The translations under genes were made by a program, and so were the position numbers. DNA of 64,000 nt, from contig JAHHIG010000003.1 in assembly GCA_019358895.1 (NCBI GenBank), positions 1 through 64,000 on the forward strand, in the 5' to 3' direction. Source of the DNA: Tildeniella nuda ZEHNDER 1965/U140 (lineage in GTDB: Bacteria; Cyanobacteriota; Cyanobacteriia; Leptolyngbyales; Leptolyngbyaceae). How positions within the stretch are numbered: the stretch's first letter is position 1; each line of letters starts with the position of its first letter. Positions 34,050 to 55,436 of this stretch are shown in pieces. A model generated the notes under the pieces. The model saw nothing but the letters and a program-made list of their open reading frames with translations, did no database searches and was not told the DNA's origin.

Positions 34050-35201
<1,152 letters not shown>

Positions 35202-35382
35202 AACATCTGCTTTTCAAGTAGTACGAAGCTCATAAAAGACAGCTTACAGCCACGATCGTTCAACGCTGCAAGCAACGATCGAGATGCCAAAGCCCTGCCT
35301 TCAGAACGCTTCACGAACGGCATGGTGCTAACACGCGCTTACACTGCGCCCTTCTGCACCGCACTACAGTACGCTGAGCTAA

Positions 35383-35556
35383 GAGGACGTTTGAAAAGTC
35401 CCGTTCTCTGTCACTTTGGCGACTAGAAGTCGCAACTACAGAGACAAAATCTGCCGTCGCAGGTTACAGAACCCTGGTTTTGCGGTAGTCCGCAACGGCG
35501 AACTTTGTTTACGTAGTCGCGGTTTTAACCGCCAGACACGTTTAAGCCACCCTCTA
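35383..35556. repeat. Interspersed nested-palindrome element, copy 1
   Basis: This aligns with 58557-58730. Shared parts in order are GAGGA(y)...AAAAGTCC, TTTGGCGACT-AAGTCGC, a CTGCCG/GCAGG hairpin, a GTCCG...CGG hairpin, and TAGTCGCGGTTTTAA(C/T)CGC. GTCGCAACTAC near 35429 can pair with GTAGTCGCGG near 35513, giving an outer stem that encloses the inner hairpins. Confidence 0.75.
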
Positions 35557-35667
35557 AGCCCATCTAGACATCATTCTGGTAGTTAGGCTCACTTTATACG
35601 CCTTACAGAATCAGTTTGACTCAGTAACCTTACGTAATAGCGGTTCAATTTTGAGCATAATCCAGGG

Positions 35668-35693
35668 AAAATACCGTACTTTAACGGTATTTT
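35668..35693. terminator. Perfect 10-bp hairpin, possible bidirectional terminator
   Basis: AAAATACCGT (35668-35677) and ACGGTATTTT (35684-35693) pair fully around a 6-base loop, with A and T tracts at both ends. GAGCA and TGCTC outside extend the pairing. It could end the ribosomal-cluster transcript, although it lies 470 bases after prfA. Confidence 0.5.
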
Positions 35694-35762
35694 GCTCACT
35701 GTTTGTACAGCCTTGTGCAACGATTTGATCAGGCTGCATGAGCAAGATTTCTTAGAGAAAAA

Positions 35763-35777
35763 TTAGTTCTGAACTAA
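35763..35777. promoter_or_regulatory. 15-bp perfect palindrome, candidate operator
   Basis: TTAGTTC, one central T, GAACTAA. A dimeric regulator could bind here. It lies about 430 bases before the caspase-like gene. Confidence 0.35.
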
Positions 35778-35796
35778 CTTCAACCACTCTAAAAAT

Positions 35797-35822
35797 CACC
35801 CTTAGGGGTGTTACCCCCTTTT
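35797..35822 (+). promoter_or_regulatory. Mutually exclusive hairpins resembling an attenuator
   Basis: CACCC (35797-35801) can pair with GGGTG (35806-35810). Alternatively AGGGGT (35804-35809) pairs with ACCCCC (35813-35818) and is followed by TTTT, a terminator form. The two pairings cannot coexist. Confidence 0.35.
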
Positions 35823-35944
35823 ACGCTTACCAAAAACTTCATTACCTTTGAACTAAGAGAGCCAACGATCAAACTCAAGCACGTCGTCAGCTTTCTTGAC
35901 CAAAACAGGCTTCAGATAACGCTTTGTGGATTCAGTTCCTATTA

Positions 35945-35984
35945 GATGAAGCAGAGTCTAAGCCATTTGGCTTAGATTTTCATC
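35945..35984. promoter_or_regulatory. Stable hairpin in the leader region
   Basis: TCTAAGCC and GGCTTAGA form a perfect 8-bp stem with a 4-base loop. GATGAA and TTCATC outside extend it after an internal loop. The plus strand continues with T4, so it could also terminate transcription weakly. Confidence 0.4.
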
Positions 35985-36205
35985 AGCTCTAAGAATCCGT
36001 TTAAGAAGTTTTCAAGTTTGCAAATCGTTTGCTTACTTTCGTCTTTTGGATCGAGCGTCCGTCTTTTTCATGCGCTCTCAATCTGTATCTTGAGTGTGCC
36101 CTGATGATGCCTTTTGATGGGTTGAACGTATGTATTGAATATTGCTGAAGACGGTTAGATACATCATTCAGCCTCATTACAAAAAACTTCGGGGAGGGTT
36201 ACATA

Positions 36206-39200
36206 GTGTCACGCGATGCTTTAGTCGTTGGAATTAGTACGTATCAGTGGTTGCCCGGTTTAAGCGCACCCTCCCATGATGCTGAGGCGATCGCTCAGCG
36301 ACTACAGGTGGATGGTGATTTTCGGGTCGCTCGGATGCCAGAGATTGTCCAGGCGGGACAATCCAGAATTGGCTTTAAAACTCAAGTGACTGTCGCGGAT
36401 TTAGAAGGTGCGCTCGTCAAACTGTTTAAGCCAAAGGGAAACAATATTCCCCAAACAGCCTTATTTTACTTTTCGGGGCATGGGTTACAGAAAGATGCGG
36501 GTGTGCAAGAAGGATTTCTAGCAACCAGTGATGCGAATCCAAACACCAGCTTCTACGGACTGTCACTGTTTTGGCTGCGGCGGTTGTTGCAGGAAAGCCC
36601 CGTGCGGCAACGCATTGTGCTACTAGACTGCTGCCACAGTGGGGAGCTACTGAACTTTCTGGAAGCTGATCCGGGTGCTCGATCGGGCACCGATCGCCTG
36701 TTTATGGCGGCATCACGAGAATACGAAGCGGCTTACGAATCGATGATCGGTAAGTACAGCGTGTTTACGCAGGCGTTGTTAGATGGCTTAGATCCGACTC
36801 GCATGGCGAATGGCACCGTCACTAACTATGCGCTCACTGATTGGGTCAGTAATGCACTCAAACGAGAGCAGCAGCAGCCATTATTTGAAAATTCTGGTAG
36901 TGAAATTCTCCTCACACGCGGACAGGCTGCATCGGCAGTCATCAAAACAGAGCTTGCCCTGGATGTTTGCCCGTTTCGAGGGCTGGAGTTTTTTGATGAG
37001 GCACACGCCGAGTACTTTTTTGGGCGCGAAGATCTGACCGATCAACTGATTGAAAAGCTTAGAGTGGGGAATTTCGCTGCCGTTGTGGGGGCATCGGGCA
37101 GCGGCAAATCGTCGTTGGTTAGAGCTGGCTTAATCCACACCTTGCGACAGGGCAAAAAGTTTTCGGGGAGCGATCGCTGGCGGATCCAACTGATTAGCCC
37201 CACCGATCAACCGCTCAAAAGTCTGGCAACTGCCTTCGTTAACCCCAAGGATTCGGCGATCGATCGGGCAGAGCAATTAAGGCGCGCCGAAATGCTACTC
37301 CGAGATGGCGGCACGGGACTGTCTCATCTGGTACGCGCCAGCCTGATGTCTGCGAAGCATGGCAGAAATTCTCGACTGTTGCTAATCATTGACCAGTTTG
37401 AGGAGGTCTTCACGCTGTGCCAGGGGGTGCAAGCAGAACGCGATCGACAAAGTTTTTTCAACAGTCTTATCACTGCTCTCCGCGAAATTGGCGATTGCTT
37501 CAGCGTTGTCATTGTGCTTCGAGCCGATTTTTTTGGCAAATACTCTCTCTACAACGGTTTAGCAGAGCAAATTGAGCAACATCTGGTAACGGTAACACCC
37601 CTCACCTATGACCAGATCAAAGCCTCCATCCTAAAGCCTGCTGCTAAAGCAGGTCTCGTCTGTGAACCCAATCTGATTTACAACATCTTGCTGGATGTTG
37701 TGGGCGCACCGGGAGAACTGCCGCTGTTGCAGTACACATTGCTTGAACTATGGCGGCAGCGGCAAATCGACCCTCATGATGGAACCGCTCATTTGACACT
37801 GGATGCTTACAACGAGCTGGGTGGCGTTCGTGGCACGCTACAGAAACGGGCAAATGACCTTTTTTATAGCCTCACCCACGAAGAGCAACGGGTTGCCAAG
37901 CGAGTTTTTATTGCGTTGACGCAGATTGGCGACGGTACTGAGGATACCCGCCGTCGCATTTCCAAAACCGAACTTGTTAGTCCCTGGTTTCCAGCCGAGT
38001 TGATTGAGCGAGTGCTGGAAAAATTGGTCACAGCAAAATTGGTCGTCACCAATCGTGTTAGCTCCAGTTGCAATCGGCAGGAGCGGGCTGTGCAAGGGCT
38101 TGCCAATGTCTCTACAGCCTTACGCCTTGCCCAGATGCGCCAGGGAAAGTGCTTACAGCAACCCTCTGAGTTTAATCAAGCCCCAATCTTATTGGCAGAT
38201 AGTGCCAATTGCAGCATCGCTGGCATTATACGGCGATCGACGCATGAGCTAGCTGAATATGCAACGGCTCAGTTCAGCAGCGATTACCAAGAAACGGTAG
38301 ATGTTGCCCACGAAGCGCTGATTCGGAATTGGTCGCTGCTGCGAACCTGGCTAGACGAAAATCGGGAGTTGCTTCAGCGACAGCGCCGGATTGAGCATGC
38401 TGCTAAGGAGTGGGCTGCTTGGGAACAGTCACGTTCGCCCGAATATTTGCTGCATGGCGATCGGCTGATAGAGGCTGAGGACTACTTGATCGCCTATCCT
38501 GACGAACTGTCAGCGCTGGCACAACGGTATATCGTGATTAGCCGTGAGGAAAACCGACGTGCACAGAAAGAGCGACGGCTGCTACAACTGGCTGTGCCCT
38601 GTACGCTGTTAGTGGCGCTGGTGGTCACATTTAGTCAGTATCGAGCCGTTGTCAACAGTCAGGCAGAGAAGGAATATCAACTGCAAATTGCCACATCCAG
38701 ACAGCAAGCTGCCGTGGCTCAAGCGATCTTACAAGAGCCAGAAAGTGATCCGACGACTGCGTTACTGATTAGCCGTTTTGCTGCCGAAAAAGGTGGCTAC
38801 ACCTACGAAGCTCAGGCAAGCCTGCGATCGGCACTGCAAAAACTGCGGCTGCAAGCCAATTTGCAGGGACATCAAGGAGCCGTCCACCAGATCACTTTTA
38901 GCCCGAATCAACGGCAACTTGCGACGGCTGGCGCTGATGGCACCGTGCGACTTTGGTCACTCACAACGCAAACAGTGGAGAAGATTCTGGCTTGGCGTGA
39001 TGAGAGCAATCAATCTTTAACCGCTGAGCGAACGACGACCGATGACTCTCAACGGGCAACGCCGATCGTCGCGATCGCGTTCAGCCCAAACGGTCAGCAA
39101 CTGGCGGCGATCGCCCAAAACTCTGCTGATGTTCAGGTTTGGTCAGTTGAATCTGGCAAACGTCTATTGACGCTCAGCGGCTTGAAAGCACCTGTGCGGC

Positions 39201-41488
39201 ACTTGAGCTTTAGCCCCAACGGCAACTGGATCGCCGCCAGCGCAGGCAAGGAAGTAAGAGTTTGGGCTGTGGCTAGTGGACAATCACACGCTAGTCTTCG
39301 GCACGCTGCTCCTGTCAACAGTCTGGTTTTCAACCCTGACAACCGAGAACTATTAACAGCTAGCGGTACTGTGGCTCAACTTTGGCAGGTGCGTGATGGG
39401 CGCATGAGTAACGGGCAGAGTCGTAAGGTTCTGCGTCATGCAAAATTGGTTAATAGCGCCACCTTTAGCCCGGATGGGCAGTCGATCGCGACTGCATGTG
39501 ATGACGGCATCGTGCGTCTTTGGCAACGCAGCACCGGGCAGCTACGCCGCGCTCTGGCTGCTGAAGCGATCCCCAGTCAGCGTAGCCGCCGAAAACAAGG
39601 GCTTGGGCAGGCATCACAACCGCTGAAGCAGGTTTTGTTTAGCCCGAATGGGCAATTTCTTGCTGCTGCTGCTGTCAGTCGCATTCAGTTGTGGAATATT
39701 AAGACGGGTCAACTATGGCATCAGCTAGAGCATAACGATACGTTGAGCACCCGCGCTCAGCCTGAACAAGATGTAGTACAACCGAATCCATCACTCAGCA
39801 GCATTGCTTTCAGTCCAGACAGTCGTCAGCTAGTTATGGCTGACCATCAATGGGGAGAGGATCAGCCGCTTGAGGCTGCGCGGCTGTGGGATGTACAGAC
39901 TGGGGCACTGGTCGGTAGTTTGAAGGGGCACTCAGGCGCGATCGAGGCAGTTCAGTTCAGCGGCAATGGCTCTTTGATTGCTACTGCCAGTACAGACGGT
40001 TCTGCGCGGTTGTGGTCAACAGCAATGGGCAGCGAATTTCCCATGCTGAAACCAGGCAGCGGGCAAATACAGTGGGCAGCCTTTCGAGGTGCGCTCCAAA
40101 CCTTACCGACCAATCAGCCTCGATCGTTGACAGCAATGTCGCGTGCTAATCTCTCACAGACGGCGAAAGCAGCGCCTGAGGGGTTTGGGGGCATAGTGAC
40201 TCTTGCGATCGATGGTACCGTGCACACCTGGAACCCAACTAAGCCAATGGTGAGCGCAGACAATGCTACTCACGTCGCGTCTGTGATGCCAAAGCAATCC
40301 TGGTTTTCGGCGCGCTTAACAGGAATCAACGCTTTCAATGTCCTGAGTGTCTTAGGAGCGGCGATCGAGCCAGCGCTCAAGGATCTGCAACCAGCGCCGC
40401 TAGGGGCAACGTTAGTCCCTACCCGATCGCTGCCCAGAACAACGGCTGTCTCTACACTCTCAACAGCAAATTCAGTACGGCTGTTACGTGATGTTACTTC
40501 GGCAACCGATGGTCAAACACGATCAGGCAGAACGGAGGCTCCTCGCACACCCGAACGTCTCATAAGCAAGCGACCCTTTAGCAGTAAGCTGACGGGCGTT
40601 GCTTTTAGCCCCAATACACCATTAGTCGCTACCGCTACTGCCCAAGGCACAGTAGACCTTTGGCAAATTCAGCCAGATCAGTCACTTGTGCCTGTGCGCC
40701 GTCTGGATGACAGCAATCCTCTTTCTTTCACAACCCATCAAACTAACCATCATCGTCTTGAGCCTATGCGTCAGCTTGCTTTCAGCCCTGATGGTAAAAC
40801 GCTTTTAGGTGTGGGCGATCGCATCATTTATCTCTGGGCTGTGCCCTCTGGCAAGCTGGTACAGAGCTTGAGCGGTCACGAAGCAAGCATTGAGCAGGCA
40901 CAGTTTAGTGCAGACAGCCAGCGTGTGGTGAGTGCTAGTCGCGATCGCACAGCGCGACTCTGGCAGGTGGCTTCCGGTCAACTGCTCACCACGTTCTACC
41001 ACCGCGATGTTGTCAGCAGTGCCCACTTTAGCCCTGATGGACAGTTAGTGGCGATCGCGAGTTGGGACGGCACGGCTAGAGTGCTGGATGCAGCAACAGG
41101 CGCGTCTCGTGTGATTATGGCGGGGCATCAAGGCGCAGTGCTGGATGCAGAGTTTAGTCCTGATGCCGCCACCTTAGTAACTGCCAGTGCCGATGGCACC
41201 GTGCGCTTGTGGGATGCCAAGACAGGTACAGAACAGGCACTACTACGCTCTGCGGCACCCGGTGCCAACCAAGAACAAATGCAGCAGGCATTTTTCAGCC
41301 CTGACGGTCGCTACGTTGCCAGCCTCAGCAAAAGTGGAGACGTTCACCTTTGGGCAGCAACGTGGGAAGAACTGCTGCGCCTCGCCCGCGATCGTAGCCT
41401 GCGGCAGCTTAAACCAGAAGAATGCCTGCGCTATCTACGTTTGTCGCCCAACGCATGTCCATCGCTGGAAAAGAACGGTGAGGGGTGA
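36206..41488 (+). CDS. Caspase-like protease - nSTAND ATPase - WD40 protein
   Basis: The product is 1760 residues. Residues 1-250 are a C14 caspase-like (orthocaspase) domain with the catalytic pair His92 in YFSGHG and Cys143 in LDCCHSG. Residues about 255-620 form an nSTAND NTPase: entry motif CPFRGLEFFDEAHAEYFFGRE, Walker A GASGSGKSS near 295-303, Walker B LLLIIDQFEE. A winged-helix-like part and one membrane segment (about 792-812) follow. From about 880 onward there are a dozen or more WD40 blades (SPDGQ and DGTVRLW motifs), interrupted near 1270-1465 by a Ser/Thr/Pro-rich insert. GTG at 36206 follows GGGGAGGG. The likely model is that WD40 blades sense a signal, the NTPase oligomerises and the protease is activated. 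The C-terminal residues sit beside a GGTGAGGGG repeat-like end. Confidence 0.9.
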   Translation: MSRDALVVGISTYQWLPGLSAPSHDAEAIAQRLQVDGDFRVARMPEIVQAGQSRIGFKTQVTVADLEGALVKLFKPKGNNIPQTALFYFSGHGLQKDAGVQEGFLATSDANPNTSFYGLSLFWLRRLLQESPVRQRIVLLDCCHSGELLNFLEADPGARSGTDRLFMAASREYEAAYESMIGKYSVFTQALLDGLDPTRMANGTVTNYALTDWVSNALKREQQQPLFENSGSEILLTRGQAASAVIKTELALDVCPFRGLEFFDEAHAEYFFGREDLTDQLIEKLRVGNFAAVVGASGSGKSSLVRAGLIHTLRQGKKFSGSDRWRIQLISPTDQPLKSLATAFVNPKDSAIDRAEQLRRAEMLLRDGGTGLSHLVRASLMSAKHGRNSRLLLIIDQFEEVFTLCQGVQAERDRQSFFNSLITALREIGDCFSVVIVLRADFFGKYSLYNGLAEQIEQHLVTVTPLTYDQIKASILKPAAKAGLVCEPNLIYNILLDVVGAPGELPLLQYTLLELWRQRQIDPHDGTAHLTLDAYNELGGVRGTLQKRANDLFYSLTHEEQRVAKRVFIALTQIGDGTEDTRRRISKTELVSPWFPAELIERVLEKLVTAKLVVTNRVSSSCNRQERAVQGLANVSTALRLAQMRQGKCLQQPSEFNQAPILLADSANCSIAGIIRRSTHELAEYATAQFSSDYQETVDVAHEALIRNWSLLRTWLDENRELLQRQRRIEHAAKEWAAWEQSRSPEYLLHGDRLIEAEDYLIAYPDELSALAQRYIVISREENRRAQKERRLLQLAVPCTLLVALVVTFSQYRAVVNSQAEKEYQLQIATSRQQAAVAQAILQEPESDPTTALLISRFAAEKGGYTYEAQASLRSALQKLRLQANLQGHQGAVHQITFSPNQRQLATAGADGTVRLWSLTTQTVEKILAWRDESNQSLTAERTTTDDSQRATPIVAIAFSPNGQQLAAIAQNSADVQVWSVESGKRLLTLSGLKAPVRHLSFSPNGNWIAASAGKEVRVWAVASGQSHASLRHAAPVNSLVFNPDNRELLTASGTVAQLWQVRDGRMSNGQSRKVLRHAKLVNSATFSPDGQSIATACDDGIVRLWQRSTGQLRRALAAEAIPSQRSRRKQGLGQASQPLKQVLFSPNGQFLAAAAVSRIQLWNIKTGQLWHQLEHNDTLSTRAQPEQDVVQPNPSLSSIAFSPDSRQLVMADHQWGEDQPLEAARLWDVQTGALVGSLKGHSGAIEAVQFSGNGSLIATASTDGSARLWSTAMGSEFPMLKPGSGQIQWAAFRGALQTLPTNQPRSLTAMSRANLSQTAKAAPEGFGGIVTLAIDGTVHTWNPTKPMVSADNATHVASVMPKQSWFSARLTGINAFNVLSVLGAAIEPALKDLQPAPLGATLVPTRSLPRTTAVSTLSTANSVRLLRDVTSATDGQTRSGRTEAPRTPERLISKRPFSSKLTGVAFSPNTPLVATATAQGTVDLWQIQPDQSLVPVRRLDDSNPLSFTTHQTNHHRLEPMRQLAFSPDGKTLLGVGDRIIYLWAVPSGKLVQSLSGHEASIEQAQFSADSQRVVSASRDRTARLWQVASGQLLTTFYHRDVVSSAHFSPDGQLVAIASWDGTARVLDAATGASRVIMAGHQGAVLDAEFSPDAATLVTASADGTVRLWDAKTGTEQALLRSAAPGANQEQMQQAFFSPDGRYVASLSKSGDVHLWAATWEELLRLARDRSLRQLKPEECLRYLRLSPNACPSLEKNGEG

Positions 41489-41593: not shown

Positions 41594-43105
41594 TTAGCTA
41601 CGCGTTTCAACTTCCTGTTTCTGCACCTCAGCCGTAGACGGTTGCGGTTGATCCTCTAAAACCGTATCGGGAACTGGTTTCTGAACTGATTCGTCAGGTT
41701 TCATCCATTCAGTGTGGAACACGCCTTCTTTATCAGTACGCAGATAGGTATGAGCGCCGAAGTAATCGCGTTGTGCCTGAGTGAGATTTTGCGGTAGGTT
41801 AGCACGGCGGTAGCTGTCAAAGTAGTCCAGCGAGGCGCTAAAGGCAGGTACGGCGATGCCCAGTTTGGCGGCTGTAGCCACGACTTCCCGCCAAGCATCC
41901 TGCTTGTCCAAAATCGTTTGCTTGAACTCAGGAGCCAGCAGTAAGTTCGGCAATGCTGGATTCTCGTCAAAGGCGTGCTTGATTTTATTCAAGAAGCCTG
42001 CCCGAATGATGCAACCACCTTTCCAGATGCGGGCACATTCACCCAGGTCTAACTCAAACCCGTAGGTCTCTGATGCCTTGCTGAGTAGTGCCATACCCTG
42101 AGCATACGAGCACATTTTGGAGCAATAGAGAGCATCTCGCACTTTCGTGATGAAGGCGGCTGTGTCCCCATCAAATTTGGCGATCGGTCCTGGTAGAACC
42201 TCAGCCGCTGCCAACCGCTCAGCCTTGTAAGACGACATAATCCGGGCAGTCACGGCTGCAATAATCGTTGGAATAGCAACCCCAATTTCTAACGAATCGG
42301 TGACAGTCCAGCGTCCAGTGCCCTTCTGCCCCGCCGCATCCAGAATCAGATCGACCAGCGGTAAGCCTGTGTCAGTGTCAATCTTCTTAAAGACATCAGC
42401 CGTAATTTCAATCAAGTAAGAGTTGAGTTCGGGCGTGTTGTTCCAGTCGGTGAAAATCTCATGCAGTTTTGCGGCATCAAGACCTAAGACGCTCCTGAGG
42501 AGGTCATACGCTTCGGCGATCAACTGCATATCGCCATACTCAATGCCGTTATGTACCATCTTGACGTAGTGACCAGCGCCACCGGGACCAATATAGGTCA
42601 CGCAAGGACCATCATCGACTTGAGCCGCGATTTTAGTCAGAATTGGTTCCAGGTATTGGTATGCCTGCTTTGTGCCACCGGGCATCATGCTAGGACCGTT
42701 GAGCGCTCCTTCTTCGCCGCCGCTGACTCCCATTCCGATAAAGGTAAATTTGGCTGACTCCAGATCTTTAGCACGGCGCTCTGTATCCGTGAATAGAGAA
42801 TTGCCACCATCGATTAAGATATCGCCTTCATCCAGGAGCGGTTTGAGTTGCTCGATCGTGGCATCGACAGGTGCGCCTGCCTTAACCATGATCAAGATCT
42901 TGCGAGGGCGTTCTAAGGCAGCTACAAATTCCTCTAACGAGTAAGCCGCAACAACATTTTTACCTGTTGCCCGTTCTGCCATAAAGGCATCTGTTTTTTC
43001 ACGACTACGGTTATAAACGGCGATAGGAAACCCATTACGCTCGACGTTGAGCGCCAGGTTTTCGCCCATTACCGCTAGACCAATTACACCAAAGCTTTGT
43101 GCCAT
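41594..43105 (-). CDS. gnd: 6-phosphogluconate dehydrogenase, decarboxylating
   Basis: This enzyme of the oxidative pentose phosphate pathway converts 6-phosphogluconate + NADP+ to ribulose 5-phosphate + CO2 + NADPH. The product is 503 residues. The Rossmann motif [17 protein letters not shown] is at the N-terminus, MVKAGAPVD and [14 protein letters not shown] follow, then the substrate motif [20 protein letters not shown] and the catalytic Lys/His segment [19 protein letters not shown]. The C-terminus has an unusual Gln/Glu/Pro-rich tail of about 30 residues. The ATG is at 43105. It is a single-gene unit with a strong terminator. Confidence 0.96.
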
Positions 43106-43372
43106 AAGATTCTCTGCTTAATTCTGCAAGTGCTTGGGCATTCCAATCCCCTTTAGGGTAGCCTGAAGCTCCTAAGTTAGCTTGGAAGATAATCTTAAGC
43201 TGTGCTGTATTGCACTTTAATCAAGAGACTCGAAGACGTTAACAAGGAATGAGGTTTAGGGTTTGGCATTTGAGCCGTTTATAGACGTGGACAAAACTCG
43301 TCGCTTAAACTTCAACACTCCCTGACAGAATCGATCTATAACTAGTTGTTCGGCATCGTTTGGAGCAGCCCT

Positions 43373-44236
43373 ATGCTGACATATCTTCTGGCACTAATCG
43401 TTGGGTTGAGCAGCTTTGGTCTCTACATGGCAGCGTTCTTTTTCCCAGAGGTGCATCGTAAGAACGATTTCATCTGGAGTGGACTGGGGTTGTTTTATGC
43501 GCTGGTGCTGTGGGTTTGTGCCGGACGCATTACAGGCGGGGTGTTGCTAGGACAGACGGCAAGCGTCACGCTCCTGGGTTGGCTGGGCTGGCAGACGCTA
43601 ACTTTGAGACGGCAGGTTGCTCCTGTAGATCAACAAACGGCTGTGCCAACGGCGGCAGAATGGCAAGCTATGCTGTCGAACGCATGGGCTGCATTGTCTC
43701 GTTCTCGATCGATCGCGCCGCTTGCCCAGCCGATCGGTAAACAGTTCGCCAAACTCTCTGCCTGGGTGGAAGCGTTAGTGACAACAACGACAAAACCGAC
43801 AGAGGCTCCGTCACCCAAAGCTGAGTCACAATCGTATGTCCCGCTGACACCTGCGGATTTTGCGAATGCGAGTCAGGACGCTATACAGTCGCCGAAAACG
43901 ATCGCCACTGATGCGGCTTCAGCGCCCAGTGTTAGCAAGAACCAGTCAGGGGAGAGTCCGTTGACAGCGATCGCTAAGCAAGTTCAGGGTGCTATCAAAG
44001 GGCTGACTGCAAAACCTGAGAGCAAGCCCGTTTATGTAAGGAAACAGTTTCGCAAGCCAGATGTGGAGACAACCCCAACCGTTGACGTTGCGTCAGTTAA
44101 TGCGGGTAGCGATCGCACGACCGAACCAGCGACTCCAACCTCAGACGTTGTGGATGCTGAAGCGAAAGAATTCTCAACACCTCCACCACAGACTGTAGAG
44201 GCTGAAGTGTTACCTGACCCAAAATCGACTGAGTGA
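43373..44236 (+). CDS. ycf66: Ycf66 family protein
   Basis: Ycf66 is a conserved membrane protein of cyanobacteria and some plastids with unknown function. From the ATG at 43373 (GGAG 9 bases upstream) the product is 287 residues. The N-terminal part carries three membrane segments (about 2-20, 32-52 and 54-72), including GLYMAAFFFPEVHRKNDFIWSGLGLFYALVLW, which is the recognised Ycf66 signature. The rest is a long, low-complexity Thr/Pro/Ala/Ser-rich tail. Its stop sits in a GAGCGGTGAGCGGTCAGC short repeat. It converges on the amidohydrolase gene. Confidence 0.85.
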   Translation: MLTYLLALIVGLSSFGLYMAAFFFPEVHRKNDFIWSGLGLFYALVLWVCAGRITGGVLLGQTASVTLLGWLGWQTLTLRRQVAPVDQQTAVPTAAEWQAMLSNAWAALSRSRSIAPLAQPIGKQFAKLSAWVEALVTTTTKPTEAPSPKAESQSYVPLTPADFANASQDAIQSPKTIATDAASAPSVSKNQSGESPLTAIAKQVQGAIKGLTAKPESKPVYVRKQFRKPDVETTPTVDVASVNAGSDRTTEPATPTSDVVDAEAKEFSTPPPQTVEAEVLPDPKSTE

Positions 44237-44275
44237 GCGGTGAGCGGTCAGCAATGAACGCAAATGGAATCAGAG

Positions 44276-45502
44276 TCATGAGGCAAAGAGCGTTTGCTGG
44301 CAGGAGCTTTGAGCAACGATACGACCCTGTTTGATGACGGTACGCTGGGTTGGTGCGGCACCGATCGCCTCCGTTACAGAGGTTGCATTCAAAAGCACTA
44401 GATCGGCAGCGTTGCCGGGAGCGATGTGGTGGTTGGGGAGTCCGATCGCCCGTGCCGCATCGGTTGTCGCCATTGCCAAACAGTGCTCATGGCTCTCAGC
44501 GGTGTTGAGTTGCAGCACTTGAGCCAGAAGAGTACACATTTTCAGCAGATCGCCATCACCAAACGGCGTAAACAAGTTCTGCACATTGTTGGTTGCTACG
44601 CCTGTGGTTACCCCGAAGGCTGCCAGCGTATGGGCAGGCGCAACGCCCCGTCGGACGTTATGCGTATCACGGCGAGCCATCATATACAAGTCTGTAGCCG
44701 GGAGTGCCAGAACCGAAATGCCTGCTGCGGCTGTGGCAGTGGCGATCGCCGCCAACTCAACCGGATCTAGCCCTGCCAACTTCGTCATGTGTCCTAGACA
44801 GACTCGTCCTTGCCAGCCCCGTTTCAGCGTTTCCGCAATGACAACGGGTAGAAGTAAGGGGGCATCATCATCGAGAAAATCCAGGTGAAAGTCTACGTCA
44901 CGGTCAAATTCCTGGGCGATGTCAAACACAATGCGAATATTTTGCTCTGGATCAGGATCCACGTAGGGTGCAGAACCAATGACATCACCGCCTAACGCCA
45001 TTGCCTGACGCAATAACGCTTTGGTACCGGGTTGGTTGGTAATGCCCTCTTGCGCGAAGACTGCAAGCTGAAGGGTTAGTCCCCAAGCATACTCGTCGCG
45101 TAGTGGCAACAGCGCTTTGATGCCCGTCAGTTGGATCATAGGATCAACTTCAACATGCGATCGCATCGCCGTCGTACCAAAGGCGATCGCCTGCTCAAGC
45201 ACCCGTCGCGCTCTAGTTTGAATATCGGCAATAGTGAACGATCGCTTGGCATTGGCGGTTTCTTGCAGCGCTTCGGTAAAGGTGCCCGTTTCCCACTGCA
45301 CGCGATCGAGCAAAAAGGCTTTGTCGAGATGAATATGTGCGTCAACTAAACCAGGGATGACGAGCGATCCCTGTGCGTCGAGTGTTGTGATTGCTGTACC
45401 AAGGAGCGATGGTGCGATGTCGATGATGGTGCCATTGGCGATCGCGATGTCCCATTGGTGCGATCGTCCGGGCAACCGAGCTTGCGTAATTTTTAGATCC
45501 AT
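44276..45502 (-). CDS. Amidohydrolase of the cytosine-deaminase-like group, altered active site
   Basis: The product is 408 residues with a TIM-barrel metal-dependent amidohydrolase fold: N-terminal beta-sandwich strands, then DAHIHLD (His56, His58), VDFHLDFLDDD (His206), CLGHMTK (His238), and TNNVQNLFTPFGDGD near 304-318. The closest overall resemblance is to cytosine deaminase. However, Phe209 takes the place of the catalytic Glu, and Asn305/Asn306 replace the two Asp residues of the usual metal-binding motif. A different substrate, or a subfamily with different chemistry, is therefore likely. It ends 40 bases from ycf66. The ATG is at 45502. Confidence 0.75.
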   Translation of the reverse strand: MDLKITQARLPGRSHQWDIAIANGTIIDIAPSLLGTAITTLDAQGSLVIPGLVDAHIHLDKAFLLDRVQWETGTFTEALQETANAKRSFTIADIQTRARRVLEQAIAFGTTAMRSHVEVDPMIQLTGIKALLPLRDEYAWGLTLQLAVFAQEGITNQPGTKALLRQAMALGGDVIGSAPYVDPDPEQNIRIVFDIAQEFDRDVDFHLDFLDDDAPLLLPVVIAETLKRGWQGRVCLGHMTKLAGLDPVELAAIATATAAAGISVLALPATDLYMMARRDTHNVRRGVAPAHTLAAFGVTTGVATNNVQNLFTPFGDGDLLKMCTLLAQVLQLNTAESHEHCLAMATTDAARAIGLPNHHIAPGNAADLVLLNATSVTEAIGAAPTQRTVIKQGRIVAQSSCQQTLFAS

Positions 45503-45563
45503 CTGCGCTGCTCCAGTCTTGCTCTTACACTTAGCTTAGTGTTGTTGGCTGCAAGAAGGCTGT

Positions 45564-46187
45564 ATGACCGTGGAACTGGCATCGACGCATTCATCTCCTT
45601 TTATCACCGTGCTCAATCAGGCTGCGATCGCGTTTCAAGCTAAAACGAACGCTCGTCCAACTGCTGTAACCGTCGTTGAGGCGCTGCTGCAAGCAGAAAA
45701 AACAGCCAAGCGAGAACACCTCATCTACCCATTCGAGGCGTTGTTAGGTGATTGGCAACTTTGCTTTGCAACGGGTACACGCAAAGTACGGCGCGGTGGT
45801 ATTGCTTTGGGCAACGGTTTTTATGTGCCAAAACTAGCAGTGGCGCAGATCTCTTTTCAGTCTGAGGTTGATGCAGACGTAGACTTGGGCAGAGGGACGA
45901 TCGGCAATCAGGTTGAAGCTGGTCCAGTCCTGCTACGGTTCACGGGTCCGGCTCACTATTTGGGCAAGAAAAACCTGCTGGCGTTTGATTTCACCCAATT
46001 GCAACTCAATGTTTTAGGCAAGACCGTCTACAGCGGTACGGTACCGAGACGCAAACCAAAATCAGGAGACTTTTACAGTCGATCGGTGGCAAATCTCCCT
46101 TTCTTTGCCTTCTTTCTGGTCGCGCCAACCTTCATCGCTGCACGCGGACGTGGCGGTGGTTTAGCGCTTTGGGTGAAGATGGTCTAG
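45564..46187 (+). CDS. Conserved cyanobacterial protein, possibly fibrillin (PAP)-like
   Basis: The product is 207 residues. The middle section, with LLGDWQLCFATGTRKVRRGGIALGNGFYVP and later GPVLLRFTGPAHYL and LLAFDFTQLQLNVLGKTVYSG, has the look of plastid-lipid-associated protein/fibrillin beta-barrel sequences, but I am not certain of that family. A hydrophobic stretch near the C-terminus (NLPFFAFFLVAPTFIAARG) could contact membranes. It is divergent from the amidohydrolase, with 61 bases between them. Confidence 0.5.
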   Translation: MTVELASTHSSPFITVLNQAAIAFQAKTNARPTAVTVVEALLQAEKTAKREHLIYPFEALLGDWQLCFATGTRKVRRGGIALGNGFYVPKLAVAQISFQSEVDADVDLGRGTIGNQVEAGPVLLRFTGPAHYLGKKNLLAFDFTQLQLNVLGKTVYSGTVPRRKPKSGDFYSRSVANLPFFAFFLVAPTFIAARGRGGGLALWVKMV

Positions 46188-46674
46188 TCAGTCTAACCGT
46201 ACGATCAGAGCGATCAGACAAAGGCTTTTGTGAAGATTCATTGACGCGTTACGCAAACGCTGGGGGCTGTCATCAATGACAACTACACATGACTTGTAGC
46301 AAGGGTTCCAGCCCCTAGCCTGGTGTGTTGGGGCGGGCGCGATCAGGCTGATACCGCAGGGTTTTGGAGCTAATTGATGACGCGCCCTAATGCACCCTTG
46401 ACCTCCAAAACAGTCTCTACAAAATTCGATGTTGCTAATCCTCATTCCTTGTCTATCATCTACCGCTGCTAACCTTAAAACTCGATCAAGAGCAGGCTCA
46501 TTCTGGGTTCAATGTGGGTACCTTAGCATTGGGCTGTGTCGTAGGATGAGAGCTTCATCCCAGTGATCTCACCGATATTTTGCGTTGATAATTTTATCGA
46601 TACACTGAAATTACGTCTAGCGATCGGGATGCTGGCTCCAGAGCAGGCTGAGGGCGTTGTCAAGGTCACTCTCA
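46188..46674. other. 490-bp spacer with a cruciform-like hairpin
   Basis: No gene is supported. GCTGGGGGCT (46259-46268) is complementary to AGCCCCTAGC (46310-46319), and inside them CTACA (46283-46287) pairs with TGTAG (46295-46299). The enclosed 41 bases are too short for a tRNA. The promoter of the pentapeptide-repeat gene should lie in the right half. Confidence 0.5.
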
Positions 46675-48231
46675 ATGAAAGCTGAGCGCATGAAAACTGA
46701 GGACGTTCTAAAACGATATGCAGCGGGTGAGCGCACATTTGCTGGCATCAACCTGAATGAAGCCAATCTGAGCGGTGCTGATCTGAGCCACGCTGATTTC
46801 AGTGGCGGCAATTTGAGTGTGGCAAATCTCAGCGGCGCGAACTTGAGCGAAACCAACCTGAGCCGAGCCAAACTGAACGTCGCCAAACTCAGTGGCGCAA
46901 ACTTGACCAACGCCAACCTGAGTGAGGCAATTCTCAATGTTGCCAACCTGACACTTGCCGACTTAACCCATGCTGAATTGAGCCAGGCATCCCTTGTAAG
47001 AGCAGAGCTTACCAGGGCAGACCTGAGCAGCGCCAACCTGAGCAACGCTAATTTGAGCGGTGCTGACCTCAAAGATGCCAAACTCCGTAACGCCAACCTC
47101 ACCAATGCCAATCTCAGTCGCGCCGATCTCAAATGGATTGTGTTAACGGGGGCTAATTTAACCGGAGCGAATCTCCACGGCACCGACTTGAGCAGTGCCG
47201 ATTGTAGCGGTGCCGATCTCAGCAGCACGGAGTTACGGCAGTCGAATTTAAGCCGCACCAATCTGCGTGGGGTGAACTTGAGTGGCGCAAACCTACGGTG
47301 GGCAGACCTGAGCGGTGCTGACTTGAGTGGTGCAGACCTGAGCGGTGCCAAACTGAGTGGTGCCACAATGACGGGCGCAAACTTGAGCAACGCTAATCTA
47401 ATTGGCACCACGCTCGTACACGTTGATCTCACACGGGCAAACCTGATTGGTGCCGATTGGGTAGGGGCTGATCTGAGTGGAGCAACGCTTACAGGGGCAA
47501 AGCTCTATGACGTACCGCGCTTTGGTGTGAAAACCGATGGCATGATCTGTGAGTGGGTCGATCTCAGCCCGATCGGTGACCAGAGCCAGATTTACCGTTT
47601 CTCTAGCGAGGACACGTTTTTTTACGCTGCACCACCCACCGTGCGCCTCATCATCGACGATCGCTTTAATCAGGATGCACATTACGCATTGGCGGTTACG
47701 TATCGCCAGATGGCACAGCACTATCACCTGACGGTCAATCCACCCAACATTCAGGTGGGTCGTCGCCGCACCACGCTAACGTTTGAGTTAAACCACGATC
47801 GTCAGCTTTTTTTGATGTGCTGTGTCGCCCTTTTTCCCTTTAAAGATGCGCCTGAGGTGCAACAGCGAACGATCACCCTTGTGAAACTACTGCTGTCAGC
47901 AGAACTAGAAAGTCGGTTTGGTACGCTGGAATGGTTTCAACCGTTCCAAACAACGCTCACACAAACGCTCACGCAGATCAACGAATTTAAGCTCTCAGAC
48001 GCTTCACTGACGGCTCTCAGCAAGATTCCCTTCTTTCAGGCTCCGACTAAAACAAGCTTGATTAACTCCAGCAATCAAAGCCTGCCCCTTTACAGCCACC
48101 CGCTGTTTGGCAAGCGCATGATGGCACTCGATCCAACTGGGGCATCGATCGCGCCTCAGTCACATTCTACGTATCATCTGCCCCCGTTAGTTGGGCTGGT
48201 TAGCTTCATTCAAGGCTTTCATGGAGGGTAG
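46675..48231 (+). CDS. Pentapeptide-repeat protein with a C-terminal unknown domain
   Basis: The product is 518 residues from the ATG at 46675. Residues 1-20 (MKTEDVLKRYAAGERTFAGINL) are the typical cyanobacterial cap. Then about 50 A(N/D)LS-type pentapeptides run to residue ~285, forming a right-handed quadrilateral beta-helix. The remaining ~230 residues form a separate domain (PTVRLIIDDRFNQDAHYALAVTYRQMAQHYHLTVNPPN, FELNHDRQLFLMCCVALFPF) that I do not recognise. The final Gly-Gly and stop lie at the start of a G-rich repeat block. The long open frame on the opposite strand is a by-product of the repeat codons. Confidence 0.85.
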   Translation: MKAERMKTEDVLKRYAAGERTFAGINLNEANLSGADLSHADFSGGNLSVANLSGANLSETNLSRAKLNVAKLSGANLTNANLSEAILNVANLTLADLTHAELSQASLVRAELTRADLSSANLSNANLSGADLKDAKLRNANLTNANLSRADLKWIVLTGANLTGANLHGTDLSSADCSGADLSSTELRQSNLSRTNLRGVNLSGANLRWADLSGADLSGADLSGAKLSGATMTGANLSNANLIGTTLVHVDLTRANLIGADWVGADLSGATLTGAKLYDVPRFGVKTDGMICEWVDLSPIGDQSQIYRFSSEDTFFYAAPPTVRLIIDDRFNQDAHYALAVTYRQMAQHYHLTVNPPNIQVGRRRTTLTFELNHDRQLFLMCCVALFPFKDAPEVQQRTITLVKLLLSAELESRFGTLEWFQPFQTTLTQTLTQINEFKLSDASLTALSKIPFFQAPTKTSLINSSNQSLPLYSHPLFGKRMMALDPTGASIAPQSHSTYHLPPLVGLVSFIQGFHGG

Positions 48232-48322
48232 GGAGTGGGGTGTGGGGTGTGGGGAGCACGGGGAGCACGGGGAGTGGGGTGTGGGAGCACGGGGAGCACG
48301 GGGAGCACGGGAGGCAGGGGAA
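48228..48322. repeat. G-rich short tandem repeats (potential G-quadruplex)
   Basis: Many runs of three to four G are separated by 2-5 bases, in units GTGGGGT and AGCACGGGG (the latter repeated five or more times, some in tandem). It begins within the stop region of the pentapeptide gene. Confidence 0.85.
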
Positions 48323-48343
48323 GTAGTTTTAAGTTGATTCTGA

Positions 48344-48371
48344 AGCTGACCGCTGAAAGCTGACCGCTGAA
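48344..48371. repeat. 14-bp perfect tandem duplication
   Basis: AGCTGACCGCTGAA occurs twice in tandem, just beyond the 3' end of cbiB. It belongs to the same GCTGACC repeat family as 11079-11099. Confidence 0.8.
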
Positions 48372-48383
48372 AGCTCTCTTAAC

Positions 48384-49385
48384 TCAAAACTCAAAACGTT
48401 CCAGCGTTGAGACGATCGCACAAACCGTGAGCCACAGCAAGACGCTCCAGCGGGTGAGTTGGAGGGCGCGATCGATGACATCGGCTGTGATCGGCTGCAC
48501 GGCATCGCCCAAGAGGGGCTTGGGTTTGGCAATGCCTCGATAATAATTAACACCACCGACCTGCACATCTAACGCGGTGGCATAAGCACACTCGCTCCAG
48601 CCGGAGTTGGGGCTGGGATCTTGAGGCGCATCCCGCCGACAAAGCCGCCAAACGTGGAGCGGTCTGCGGGACAAGAGGGCGATCGTCAACACCGTCAAAC
48701 GGCAGGGCATCCAGGTCAAAACATCCTCTGTTTTGGCGCTAAACCAGCCCAAATCGGTGTAGGGTGCATCTTTGTAGCCCACCATCGAATCTAGGGTGCT
48801 GGCAGCTTTGTATGCCAACGCCAGCGGGACACTGCCGATCGGCAGCATGGCTCCTACCAGGGCGTAGAACAAGGGTGCGAGTACGCCGTCTGTGGCGTTT
48901 TCTGTCACTGTCTCAAACACGGCTCGTAAGATGTCTGTTGCAGTCAAGCGGTCGGTGTCGCGTCCCACATACTGACTCAGACGCGATCGAGCGTTGACTA
49001 GATCTCCTGTTGCTAAGGGACGTAACACTTCTGTCGCGGCATCTCTGAGGCTTCTAGCAGCAAAACAGCTTGCCAGTAGAATGCTGGCTGTAGCGGTGCC
49101 GACGAGTGGATGAAGGTAGTGAGCGATCGCCACCAGCGCCCAGCCGACGAACCCACTGCCCAAGATGATACTGCTACCCAGAACAACGCCAGCGCACCGC
49201 AAGGCTAAAGGCGTTTGGCAACAATAAAATGCCCACCGTGTAACGTAGGCGATCGCCCAACCGATCCCCTGCACTGGATGCCACCAGCCTTTAGGGTCAC
49301 CGATTAAATAATCCAGCGCTGCGGCAAAGATTAAAACATTAATCGAGAAAACGTAAGTAGAGACGTAAAACGTGCTAGTGAACAG
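48384..49385 (-). CDS. cbiB: Adenosylcobinamide-phosphate synthase CbiB/CobD, non-canonical start
   Basis: This membrane enzyme attaches aminopropanol phosphate to cobyric acid in cobalamin synthesis. The usual first ATG/GTG (49274) falls inside the conserved HPVQ motif and would cut off the start. The same frame continues upstream and encodes the expected ALDYLIGDPKGWWHPVQ, back to a stop just before 49415, but contains no ATG, GTG or TTG. The best candidate is CTG at 49385, with GGGGAG 10 bases upstream; ATT is the alternative. Later motifs VTENATDGVLAPLFYAL and ASTLDSMVGYKDAPY are typical. There are about four membrane segments. The C-terminal RFEF and stop are encoded by TTTTGAG heptamers. 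Confidence 0.85.
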   Translation of the reverse strand: MFTSTFYVSTYVFSINVLIFAAALDYLIGDPKGWWHPVQGIGWAIAYVTRWAFYCCQTPLALRCAGVVLGSSIILGSGFVGWALVAIAHYLHPLVGTATASILLASCFAARSLRDAATEVLRPLATGDLVNARSRLSQYVGRDTDRLTATDILRAVFETVTENATDGVLAPLFYALVGAMLPIGSVPLALAYKAASTLDSMVGYKDAPYTDLGWFSAKTEDVLTWMPCRLTVLTIALLSRRPLHVWRLCRRDAPQDPSPNSGWSECAYATALDVQVGGVNYYRGIAKPKPLLGDAVQPITADVIDRALQLTRWSVLLWLTVCAIVSTLERFEF

Positions 49386-49570
49386 GCGATCGCTGCTCCC
49401 CTTTAAACATGAGGATAATATTACAATCTATTACATCCCGTTAAGGACGGGGAACGCAATGCCGCAGAATTAACTACGAGCGGTAATTGCGTCGGGCGAG
49501 AGTGGGAGTTTTTCCCTCTAACGCACGACCAGTCACACCATCGGTTACATTCTTCTAGAGGAATCCATCC
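49386..49570 (+). promoter_or_regulatory. apcA leader region
   Basis: The spacer between divergent cbiB and apcA contains an A/T-rich promoter-like patch near 49410-49435, CCCGT/ACGGG (about 49436-49452) and a hairpin with GGGA/TCCC around GTTTT near 49500-49520. AGAGGAA precedes apcA. Confidence 0.4.
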
Positions 49571-50056
49571 ATGAGTATTGTCACGAAATCGATCGTGAAT
49601 GCAGATGCTGAAGCTCGCTACCTCGGTCCTGGCGAACTCGATCGCATCAAGAGCTTCGTCACCAGTGGCGAACGGAGACTACGGATCGCTCAAACATTGA
49701 CCGAATCCCGCGAACGCATCATCAAGCAAGCTGGTGATCAACTATTTCAAAAGCGTCCTGACGTTGTTTCCCCCGGTGGCAACGCTTACGGCGAAGAAAT
49801 GACCGCTACCTGCCTGCGTGACCTCGACTACTACCTGCGTCTTGTGACCTACGGTGTGGTTGCGGGTGATGTGACACCGATCGAAGAAATCGGCATCGTG
49901 GGCGTTCGTGAGATGTACAACTCTCTGGGCACCCCCATTCCCGCAGTCGCTGAAGGCATTCGCGCTATGAAGACCGTTGCGGCTTCGCTTCTGTCTGGTG
50001 AAGATGCAGCAGAAGCTGGCGGCTACTTCGACTACGTTATCGGTGCGATGCAGTAA
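49571..50056 (+). CDS. apcA: Allophycocyanin alpha subunit
   Basis: ApcA is a phycobilisome core biliprotein with phycocyanobilin attached to Cys81 in the [13 protein letters not shown] motif. The 161-residue length is standard. The globin-like fold is clear from [25 protein letters not shown] to [15 protein letters not shown] lies 7 bases before the ATG. It is followed by apcB after 114 bases. The gene for the core-membrane linker, apcE, often directly upstream, is absent and replaced by cbiB on the other strand. Confidence 0.98.
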
Positions 50057-50170
50057 GCCAACGCGATCGTGGACAGAAAAAGCATAAACGTTGCTTATCT
50101 TTTGCCCTCTCGCCTTTGCCGTTCTGTGCTCAACTTCTCGTAAGACTACGCGATTTAAGGAATCTCAATC

Positions 50171-50656
50171 ATGCAAGACGCTATTACCTCCGTCATTAAC
50201 TCTTCGGATGTACAGGGCAAGTACCTGGACAACGCTTCCCTCGAAAAGCTGAAAGCATACTTCAGCACTGGTGAACTACGCGTTCGTGCGGCAACAACCG
50301 TCAGCGCCAACGCAGCCGTGATCGTCAAAGAAGCGGTTGCTAAGTCCTTGCTGTACTCGGATATCACCCGTCCCGGCGGCAACATGTACACCACCCGTCG
50401 CTATGCTGCTTGCATCCGCGACCTCGACTACTACCTGCGCTATGCAACCTATGCCATGCTGGCTGGCGATCCTTCCATCCTGGATGAGCGCGTGCTCAAC
50501 GGTTTGAAAGAAACCTACAACTCGCTAGGCGTTCCCGTTTCGGCAACCATTCAGGCGATCCAAGCAATCAAAGAAGTGGCGGCTGGTCTGGTTGGTTCTG
50601 ACGCTGGCAAAGAGTTGGGCGTTTACCTCGACTACATCTCCTCTGGCTTGAGCTAA
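50171..50656 (+). CDS. apcB: Allophycocyanin beta subunit
   Basis: ApcB is the partner of ApcA in the core hexamers. The product is 161 residues, with chromophore Cys81 in [19 protein letters not shown] and the conserved Asn71 in GGNMYTTRR, which is gamma-N-methylated in this family. AAGGAA precedes the ATG. Codon choice is strongly biased to C-ending codons, as expected of a highly expressed gene. apcC follows after 333 bases. Confidence 0.98.
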
Positions 50657-50989
50657 CCCTCAACGTCGATGAATGACGAGTTGTGAGCCACGAGTTAATT
50701 TGATTCAAAACTCAAAACTCAACATTCAAAACTCAATGGAAGGTTTGGGAGTCTAGGGTGAGTGCTAGCTTGTCAAAGGCTAATCGCCATGAGTGTTTAG
50801 TTTTAACGATCTAACATTGATTCTTGACTCCCAAACGTCCTCTCCAAACTTTCCTCTAGGGCTGCTTTGTAGTACGCTCACCGCATCGTAGATGCAAAGC
50901 GACTCGATCGATGCCGATCAATACTGATCTTTGTTCAGATTCAAAATTTCTTCCCTTCGCTACGCCCATATCCAGGAGAAATCATTCCT
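50657..50989. other. apcB-apcC spacer with short repeats
   Basis: This 333-bp spacer has tandem AAAACTC heptamers (about 50705-50740) and a TTGGGAGTC/GACTCCCAA pair (50748-50756 with 50826-50834) that could form a hairpin. Such a structure may lower apcC expression relative to apcAB. No gene is seen. Confidence 0.55.
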
Positions 50990-51193
50990 ATGCGCTTCTT
51001 TAAAATTACTGCTTGTGTTCCCAGCCAGACCCGTATCCGTACACAGCGGGAACTGCAAAACACCTACTTTACGAAATTAGTACCCTACGACAACTGGTTT
51101 CGTGAACAGCAACGCATTCAAAAGCAGGGCGGCACCATTATTAAAGTGGAATTGGCAACGGGCAAGCCTGGAGCAAATACAGGACTGGCGTAA
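50990..51193 (+). CDS. apcC: Phycobilisome core linker Lc7.8
   Basis: ApcC is a small core linker that caps allophycocyanin trimers. The product is 67 residues. MRFFKITACVPSQTRIRTQRELQNTYFTKLVPYDNWFREQQRI-type sequence is nearly invariant across cyanobacteria. AGGAGAAA precedes the ATG. It is third of the apcA-apcB-apcC set and ends just before a block of inverted repeats that may terminate the transcript. Confidence 0.97.
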   Translation: MRFFKITACVPSQTRIRTQRELQNTYFTKLVPYDNWFREQQRIQKQGGTIIKVELATGKPGANTGLA

Positions 51194-51216
51194 CGTGTTG
51201 CACAAATAACAATGCC

Positions 51217-51361
51217 GATCCCCGACTTCTTTGTTCAGTCTTGATGTGACTAGCTGAACTTGATGCAGAAGCCGGGGATCTGGCAGCGAGCGCATTAGAT
51301 CCCCGACTTCTGAACCAGGTTGAGCCAATGACAGCAAGGTTCAACAAAGAAGCCGGGGATC
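51217..51361. repeat. Array of four complementary arms (GATCCCCG...)
   Basis: Arms at 51217-51235 and 51298-51311 read GATCCCCGACTTCT. Arms at 51267-51280 and 51343-51361 read AGAAGCCGGGGATC. The outermost pair matches over 18 of 19 positions. Either two local hairpins or one large stem can form. It lies between convergent apcC and the GMC gene, so it may serve as a terminator for both. Confidence 0.85.
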
Positions 51362-51376
51362 TTGTGTTTACCCGTT

Positions 51377-52894: not shown

Positions 52895-52904
52895 TGGTAG
52901 ATCC

Positions 52905-53516
52905 TCACTGCCACAGGTAAATTAGGCTGAACAAAATAATCCAAATCACGTCAACGAAGTGCCAGAACAGAGATGTTGATGCAAAACCATAGTGATTTTC
53001 AGGTGTGGCGTGTTTGGGCGTGAAAGAGCGAATGAATACGCCTAATTGTAAAAGAATGCCGACGAGAACGTGCAAACCGTGGAAGCCCGTGAGCAGATAG
53101 AAGGTGCCGCCAAACAAGCCAGTGGTGAGTCCAAAGTTGAGACCGTTCCACTCGATCGCCTGACCCACCAAAAAATAAGTGCCCATTGCCGCTGTAGCAA
53201 ATAAGAACAAGCGAAAAAGGTTCAGCTTGTTTCGTTCTAGCGCCAGTTCTCCAAAGTAAATGACAAAGCTACTGGAAACGAGAACCGCCGTGTTGATCGC
53301 AGGATTGAAAATTTCTAGCCCATCTACGTTGGGGGGAAGCCAGTCTGCTGTAGTCAACTTGAGGGCAATGTAGCCACCAAAAAAGCCTAGAAAGACCATA
53401 CTTTCCGACAGCAGAAATACGATGAACCCGAACATACGATTATCGGCGTGTTCGCCAGGTATGCCCTCCTTTTCGGGTGCAGACTGCAAGTGTTCGGGAG
53501 TGACTGAGGTATCCAT
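52905..53516 (-). CDS. ctaE: Terminal oxidase subunit III
   Basis: The product is 203 residues from the ATG at 53516. The frame open back to 53606 is repeat-derived. Five membrane segments are seen. Conserved stretches are GFIVFLLSESMVFLGFFGGYIALK, with the Glu of subunit III, and FYLLTGFHGLHVLVGILLQLGV, with WHFVDVIWIILF at the C-terminus. No Shine-Dalgarno site is present, because a GGGAGTG repeat occupies that position. It belongs with ctaC and ctaD of the ARTO-type oxidase. Confidence 0.92.
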   Translation of the reverse strand: MDTSVTPEHLQSAPEKEGIPGEHADNRMFGFIVFLLSESMVFLGFFGGYIALKLTTADWLPPNVDGLEIFNPAINTAVLVSSSFVIYFGELALERNKLNLFRLFLFATAAMGTYFLVGQAIEWNGLNFGLTTGLFGGTFYLLTGFHGLHVLVGILLQLGVFIRSFTPKHATPENHYGFASTSLFWHFVDVIWIILFSLIYLWQ

Positions 53517-55315: not shown

Positions 55316-55320
55316 GCGAG

Positions 55321-55436
55321 AAAGTTGTTGGTTGTTAGTTTTTAGTTGTTAGAAGGTAGAAGGGGAAACACCGCAGAGACGCGGAGGTTTAACTCAAAAA
55401 CTCCTGCCCACTCCCCACTCCCTACTCCCCACTCCC
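55321..55436. repeat. Roughly 110-bp repeat on the ctaC side of ctaD (inverted copy)
   Basis: This is the inverted counterpart of 53517-53632. It supplies the last codons and stop of ctaC: the end MEKGSGE-stop is read from the GGGAGTGGGGAGTAG repeat units. Confidence 0.8.

Follow-up and report, generated by a model that had tools for sequence, protein, structure and literature searches.

Which side of the membrane the sensor of a cyanobacterial caspase homolog lies on, and whether the protease it would govern serves cell death, defence or ordinary signalling, are the questions raised by one long gene in the window, the 64,000-nucleotide stretch of DNA analysed here. The open reading frame (36206-41488, +) is uninterrupted over 1,760 codons and begins with GTG; aligned orthologs have the same MSRDAL N-terminus, and their start codon is mostly ATG. 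By named genome records, its closest relatives are found in Stenomitos, the genus of the window, and other Leptolyngbyaceae. The gene and its surroundings are as follows.

36206..41488, + strand: coding sequence of the orthocaspase-nSTAND1-TM-WD40 protein, 1,760 aa (Pfam domains, full-length orthologs)
36191..36198, + strand: likely ribosome-binding site GGGGAGGG, 7 nt 5' of the GTG (sequence)
34089..35201, + strand: prfA, upstream neighbour at the end of a ribosomal-protein cluster (also the neighbour in 2 other Stenomitos contigs)
41594..43105, - strand: gnd, downstream convergent neighbour (window annotation and related contigs)

Between prfA and the gene, ~1 kb (35202-36205) holds no listed ORF of at least 80 aa and may leave room for a promoter or an unrecognised small RNA.

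An earlier note on this DNA had described one 1,760-residue protein with an intact His-Cys caspase dyad and intact Walker A and B motifs, and both Pfam and the ortholog alignment bear this out. Residues 5-228 match Peptidase_C14 at 7e-16 (59 bits against a cut-off of 21.4), and His92 and Cys143 are present in 18/18 orthologs. A PF00656 match above the gathering score together with an intact dyad defines a 'true' orthocaspase, and judged by its sequence the protein is one. The adjacent NTPase is assigned by Pfam to nSTAND1 over residues 256-742 (2e-112, 377 bits against a cut-off of 27.1), with NACHT scoring 29.5 bits for the same NTPase. GASGSGK[ST]S (Walker A) and [LVI]L[IV]IDQFEE (Walker B) are conserved throughout the 18 full-length orthologs of the alignment. 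A PDB sequence search with the caspase domain gave no meaningful match.

36206..36910, + strand: Peptidase_C14 (caspase p20-like) domain, residues 1-235 (PF00656)
36479..36481, + strand: codon of the catalytic His92, in SGHG (18/18 orthologs)
36632..36634, + strand: codon of the catalytic Cys143, in DCCHSG (18/18 orthologs)
36971..38431, + strand: nSTAND1 NTPase module, residues 256-742 (PF20703)
37088..37114, + strand: Walker A, GASGSGKSS, residues 295-303 (ortholog alignment)
37379..37405, + strand: Walker B, LLIIDQFEE, residues 392-400 (ortholog alignment)

The order of caspase, STAND NTPase and WD40 array, as seen in Pfam and in the structural model, is that of the cyanobacterial metacaspase family cbMC-beta, described with NACHT and 13-15 WD40 repeats (PMC2853523), and of the widely distributed Metacaspase-NACHT-WD40 proteins (PMC3501461). 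All have a caspase p20 joined in a single polypeptide to a STAND-type NTPase and 13-15 WD40 repeats; the older papers call the NTPase NACHT, whereas that of the window protein is nSTAND1 by current Pfam. The same module order is reported for six p20-TM-WD40 orthocaspases, in which the WD40 part was placed probably outside and the p20 inside, and for which a receptor-type activation was sketched (PMC7475262). Members there are written p20 - (AAA_16/NACHT) - TM - WD40, for example GEI7407_1667, Ava_0039 and Ava_3079; we liken the window protein to them from their descriptions. The idea of extrinsic and intrinsic activation routes is repeated in PMC8283722. Both the architecture and the extracytoplasmic-WD40 topology are thus already published, and the gene adds a well-conserved example to a known layout; we dropped the extracytoplasmic WD40 as a new idea, as it had been proposed in PMC7475262. 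Nor is the membrane segment unusual, as the earlier note had it: a segment between NTPase and propeller is common to almost all relatives examined, and p20-TM-WD40 proteins are already listed in that paper. Whereas the published topology was drawn from domain order and TM calls alone, evidence from Cys content, charge and controls is added here. In the literature covered, to which subscription papers mostly do not belong, we found neither such compositional evidence nor the tail Cys pair, C-terminal module exchange or clade-wise conservation described below.

By Pfam, the WD40 repeats span ~880-1720. Structure prediction, which had been recommended as a check, succeeded for one half of the protein: for residues 862-1760 the AlphaFold model is good apart from loops (mean pLDDT 72.7; 364 residues at 90 or above), but that of residues 1-885, the caspase-nSTAND-TM half, is poor (pLDDT 58.2, 18 similar sequences). 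The poor model was left out of the fold search, and no reading here rests on its membrane crossing or coupling. About 15 blades are modelled, which agrees with the dozen or more noted earlier: eight, then a weak degenerate one (~1283-1345) and, past a disordered stretch (1346-1459), six more, the count being taken from the DSSP strand list and not from coordinates. The ~190-residue low-complexity insert previously seen in the propeller therefore divides into a genuinely disordered loop (~1346-1459, ~114 residues) and the degenerate blade at 1283-1345. The insert is mostly ordinary variable linker, and the loop spans 35-131 residues across orthologs. Within the helical linker that precedes the blades, residues 831-878 have an identity to orthologs of 0.80.

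38642..38839, + strand: helical linker past the membrane segment, residues 813-878 (model, low confidence overall)
38843..40240, + strand: WD40 blades before the loop, residues 880-1345, the last one degenerate (Pfam; AlphaFold model)
40241..40582, + strand: disordered inter-blade loop, residues 1346-1459 (pLDDT 24-31)
40583..41380, + strand: WD40 blades after the loop, residues 1460-1725 (Pfam; pLDDT mostly above 90)
41381..41485, + strand: conserved C-terminal tail with invariant Cys1740 and Cys1751 (18/18 orthologs)

In the fold search, the best PDB matches of the propeller half include 2ymu ('highly repetitive propeller') and full-length Apaf-1. The arrangement resembles the Apaf-1 apoptosome, where a double WD40 propeller governs a STAND ATPase controlling a caspase, with a structural likeness confined to the propeller half. 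Apaf-1 is cytosolic, has an NB-ARC module and recruits a separate caspase via its CARD, whereas the window protein has a fused caspase and a membrane segment between ATPase and propeller.

That segment is the single one claimed earlier. Residues 792-812 are the only strongly hydrophobic stretch, at 2.17 against 1.60 for the next best, which lies within the nSTAND domain; the call is based on hydropathy.

38579..38641, + strand: single membrane segment, residues 792-812 (mean Kyte-Doolittle 2.17; same place in relatives)
38540..38578, + strand: Arg/Lys-rich flank SREENRRAQKERR, residues 779-791, predicted cytoplasmic side (charge bias)

The basic flank recurs in the family. Counting 20 residues on each side of the segment, full-length members have 5.5 K/R before versus 3.6 after it (26/29 in that direction), and short members 5.1 versus 2.1 (38/42); the 3.6 K/R still present past the segment in full-length members tell somewhat against the predicted topology. 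Cysteine, too, is unevenly distributed, with 1.11 per 100 residues before the segment versus 0.08 in 813-1725 in the 18-sequence alignment. When only variable columns are taken, the values are 1.53 before and 0.12 after, a ~12-fold difference with a Fisher p of 2.5e-23 that ignores the kinship of the alignment rows.

Other WD40 proteins serve as controls. Within the window's own genome, WD40 regions have 0-0.28 Cys per 100 residues when a membrane segment precedes the propeller versus 0.68-2.86 when none does. Among 65 WD40 proteins from cyanobacterial genomes, dereplicated at 70%, the values are 0.13 with a segment (n=37) and 1.84 without (n=28), although these are not 65 independent events because the two kinds belong to partly different families. 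One NTPase-WD40 family dominates the TM-less group, and the Cys scarcity could be partly ancestral. The closest control is a congeneric TM-less caspase-STAND-WD40 protein, whose 608 WD40 residues include 9 Cys, against 0-1 in the TM-bearing ones. Of two further TM-less proteins, one has 3 Cys in 586 residues; the other, the relative L140, is an exception, being Cys-poor at 1 in 475. The two-Cys tail also tracks the membrane segment, occurring in 35/36 of the TM-WD40 proteins whose tail could be read versus 11/28 TM-less ones. Four 'TM-less' proteins with zero Cys carry the tail pair, two of them short or cut and two with a hydropathy of 1.28-1.39, and the sole Cys-rich 'TM' protein of the 65 bears the other of the two tail types given below; most exceptions to the Cys rule look like misassigned TM calls.

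The basic flank, the Cys depletion, the tail Cys pair and the TM-less controls are indirect but mutually consistent signs that the propeller probably lies outside the cytoplasm. The composition statistics support the predicted topology, and the Cys pattern suggests that the propeller occupies an oxidising compartment and ends in a putative disulfide, Cys1740-Cys1751. The Cys rule offers a quick, cheap guide to localisation for many uncharacterised cyanobacterial WD40 and STAND proteins. Cyanobacterial WD40 proteins L178-L250 fall into two sorts: in one, a membrane segment precedes the propeller, Cys is almost absent and the tail resembles GC.W...YL.....R.LC; in the other there is no segment, Cys is normal or high and the tail resembles YEGMNI.G..GLT.AQ..TLKALGA.

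The domains, the intact catalytic and Walker residues, the one hydrophobic segment and the strong orthology are plain in the sequence. As to what the parts do together, we lean slightly toward a type II (N-in, C-out) transmembrane STAND receptor that activates a cytoplasmic Arg/Lys-specific orthocaspase. The caspase domain and nSTAND ATPase would lie in the cytoplasm, one helix would pass through the membrane, and the double WD40 propeller with its C-terminal disulfide would stand on the far side, in the periplasm or the thylakoid lumen. There the propeller would sense a ligand, a partner or a redox change, and the signal would travel through the helix and release the STAND module for ATP-dependent clustering; clustering would bring the caspase domains together at the inner face, where substrates would be cut after Arg or Lys. 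We infer the ATP-driven clustering, the proximity activation and the basic P1 specificity from known STAND proteins and orthocaspases. STAND sensors usually contact the ATPase directly, and we know of no STAND ATPase for which activation across a membrane via one helix is established; if the reading is true, STAND activation would cross the membrane in just this way. Cyanobacterial orthocaspases cut after basic residues (PMC7965980), with which modelling agrees (PMC8283722), and the Arg/Lys proteolysis of other orthocaspases is calcium-independent (PMC7965980, PMC8283722).

Full-length orthologs are present in 7/7 sampled Stenomitos genomes. In a survey of the family with one genome per species, all sampled members of genera g13, g16, g17 and g18 have an ortholog and none of g6, g15 and g3 does; presence is mostly all-or-none by genus, and the copies of G034 (g13) and G007 (g2) run into contig ends. 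Outside its lineage the gene is patchy, since only 13/292 genomes of a phylum-wide draw give a strong match. A caspase-nSTAND tree agrees with a tree of rpoA+gnd for genus-level groups, with weak or conflicting mismatches at G016 and in the grouping of G000 with G001 or G003; the sequences suggest that inheritance of the orthologous group is clade-wise and largely vertical. The window genome's gnd is closest to that of G003 (93%) and its rpoA and caspase gene to those of G001, and a gnd exchange involving G000 and G003 is possible. In every Stenomitos contig reaching that far, and in G030 from another genus, gnd adjoins the caspase-WD40 gene. Different genes flank the ortholog in other genera, so that flanks are kept only inside subclades and no ORF is a constant neighbour at all orthologous loci, as an operon partner would be.

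Mean identity to the window protein (same genus/other genera) is 0.93/0.80 for the caspase, 0.94/0.73 for the NTPase core, 0.93/0.61 for the membrane segment and 0.82/0.74 for the tail, versus 0.62/0.41 and 0.71/0.51 for propeller parts 1 and 2. With within-genus yardsticks of 0.83-0.93 for gnd and 0.91-0.98 for rpoA, the protease is conserved to about the degree of a metabolic enzyme, whereas the sensor part diverges. Such gnd-like conservation of the caspase, the conserved within-genus place beside gnd and the largely vertical inheritance would suit the same transmembrane receptor used differently, for limited proteolysis in stable physiological signalling (envelope, light or redox stress, filament fate) and not for death. 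However, the gene is missing throughout some genera of its family (g6, g15, g3) and is therefore dispensable, and the propellers are far more variable (0.41-0.51 across genera), as a changing interaction surface would be. We regard this alternative as serious but unlikely.

Cell death versus ordinary signalling by bacterial caspase homologs is an open question, and the dependence of cyanobacterial cell death on these proteases is unresolved according to the same review (PMC7965980). The link to programmed cell death and conflict systems that the earlier note drew survives as a family-level prediction (PMC7159879, PMC7475262), not as a demonstrated function (PMC7965980). The gene family offers a clean test case. 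It is conserved full-length across the sampled genus, and the topology, Cys143, the Walker A lysine and Cys1740/Cys1751 can each be tested separately. In its own genome, which has eleven Peptidase_C14 genes (L021-L031), the window gene alone exceeds 1,000 aa and is the only caspase-WD40 fusion found.

A rival reading with a role in defence has a different topology. As an intracellular phage sensor of the Avs/NLR-like abortive-infection kind, the protein would detect a phage component with a cytoplasmic propeller, the segment would serve as a tether and the caspase would kill the cell. Caspase, STAND and propeller modules do recur in predicted conflict systems (PMC7159879), PADLOC matches the caspase domain, if weakly (48 bits), and related genes (44-52% identity) lie on plasmids of Nostoc, Tolypothrix, Microchaete, Acaryochloris and Gloeothece, several of them predicted to be conjugative or mobilizable. 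The wider family thus moves, although this orthologous group looks stable. Against such a sensor, the scarcity of Cys past the segment, the basic flank before it and the Cys pair in the tail speak for a propeller outside the cytoplasm, presence is mostly all-or-none by genus and the gene tree broadly follows the marker tree. No evident defence island surrounds the gene, whose neighbours are the ribosomal operon and gnd, and PADLOC matched none of eight nearby genes (43346-59890). A search of 50,697 phage records and a viral contig scan yielded no relative of the caspase domain; in the phage records only the ATPase region is matched (28-32%). The defence link thus finds little support for this gene, and we consider the phage sensor improbable.

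Among the genes tested, the one strong PADLOC match belongs to a Ser/Thr kinase-TPR gene (5299-7158, -) at a distance of 29 kb, whose protein matches many PD-T4-6 models, probably through generic kinase similarity. A phage-borne gene was considered as well, since PHROG phrog_923, a 990-position phage family of unassigned function, matches the caspase-nSTAND1 core at 1.8e-196; it was rejected, as neither these phage records nor the viral contig scan gave a caspase-domain relative, and the family probably stems from prophage-like calls that contain short relatives of chromosomal or plasmid origin. On plasmid p057_L of Nostoc sp. C057, a caspase-STAND-TM-WD40 gene of 1,509 aa (L251) adjoins a divergent CU044_2847 family gene, with replication and mobilisation genes near.

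We rejected as very improbable a two-gene EACC1-type membrane conflict system, in which the caspase component would be activated by a separate single-TM EACC1 partner, because the NCBIfam model 'caspase, EACC1-associated type' (NF047832), although it matches residues 4-220 at 6.5e-26, scores 91 bits, below its curated cut-off of 140, the neighbours are prfA and convergent gnd with no recurrent partner gene, and the TM is built into the caspase protein itself.

The transmembrane receptor that we favour may have many relatives. Tentatively, and with somewhat less confidence than in the receptor itself, we propose a large cyanobacterial class of transmembrane STAND receptors with an outside WD40 sensor sealed by a C-terminal disulfide, in which a constant caspase-nSTAND1-TM core would carry exchangeable extracytoplasmic modules and the window gene would be a stable, non-defence member. 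Short relatives of ~850-1,020 aa keep the caspase-nSTAND1-TM core, with a core identity to the window protein of roughly 42-57%, and have other small C-terminal modules instead of WD40; phrog_923 matches these short proteins. In one short relative, the C-terminal module consists of pentapeptide repeats.

The window's own genome also encodes an nSTAND1-TM-WD40 protein of 1,413 aa (L178, C24:339500-345500). It resembles the window protein in its nSTAND1-TM-WD40 part, Cys-poor propeller and two-Cys tail, but has an N-terminal region that is trypsin-like by eye in place of the caspase, and from its sequence looks like a protease-swapped counterpart. In three short relatives (L095, L097, L104), the C-terminal 230-260 residues have 4-5 Cys and an acidic D-x-N-x-D-G-like stretch, recognised by eye in a module with no Pfam match above cut-off; this module may bind calcium.
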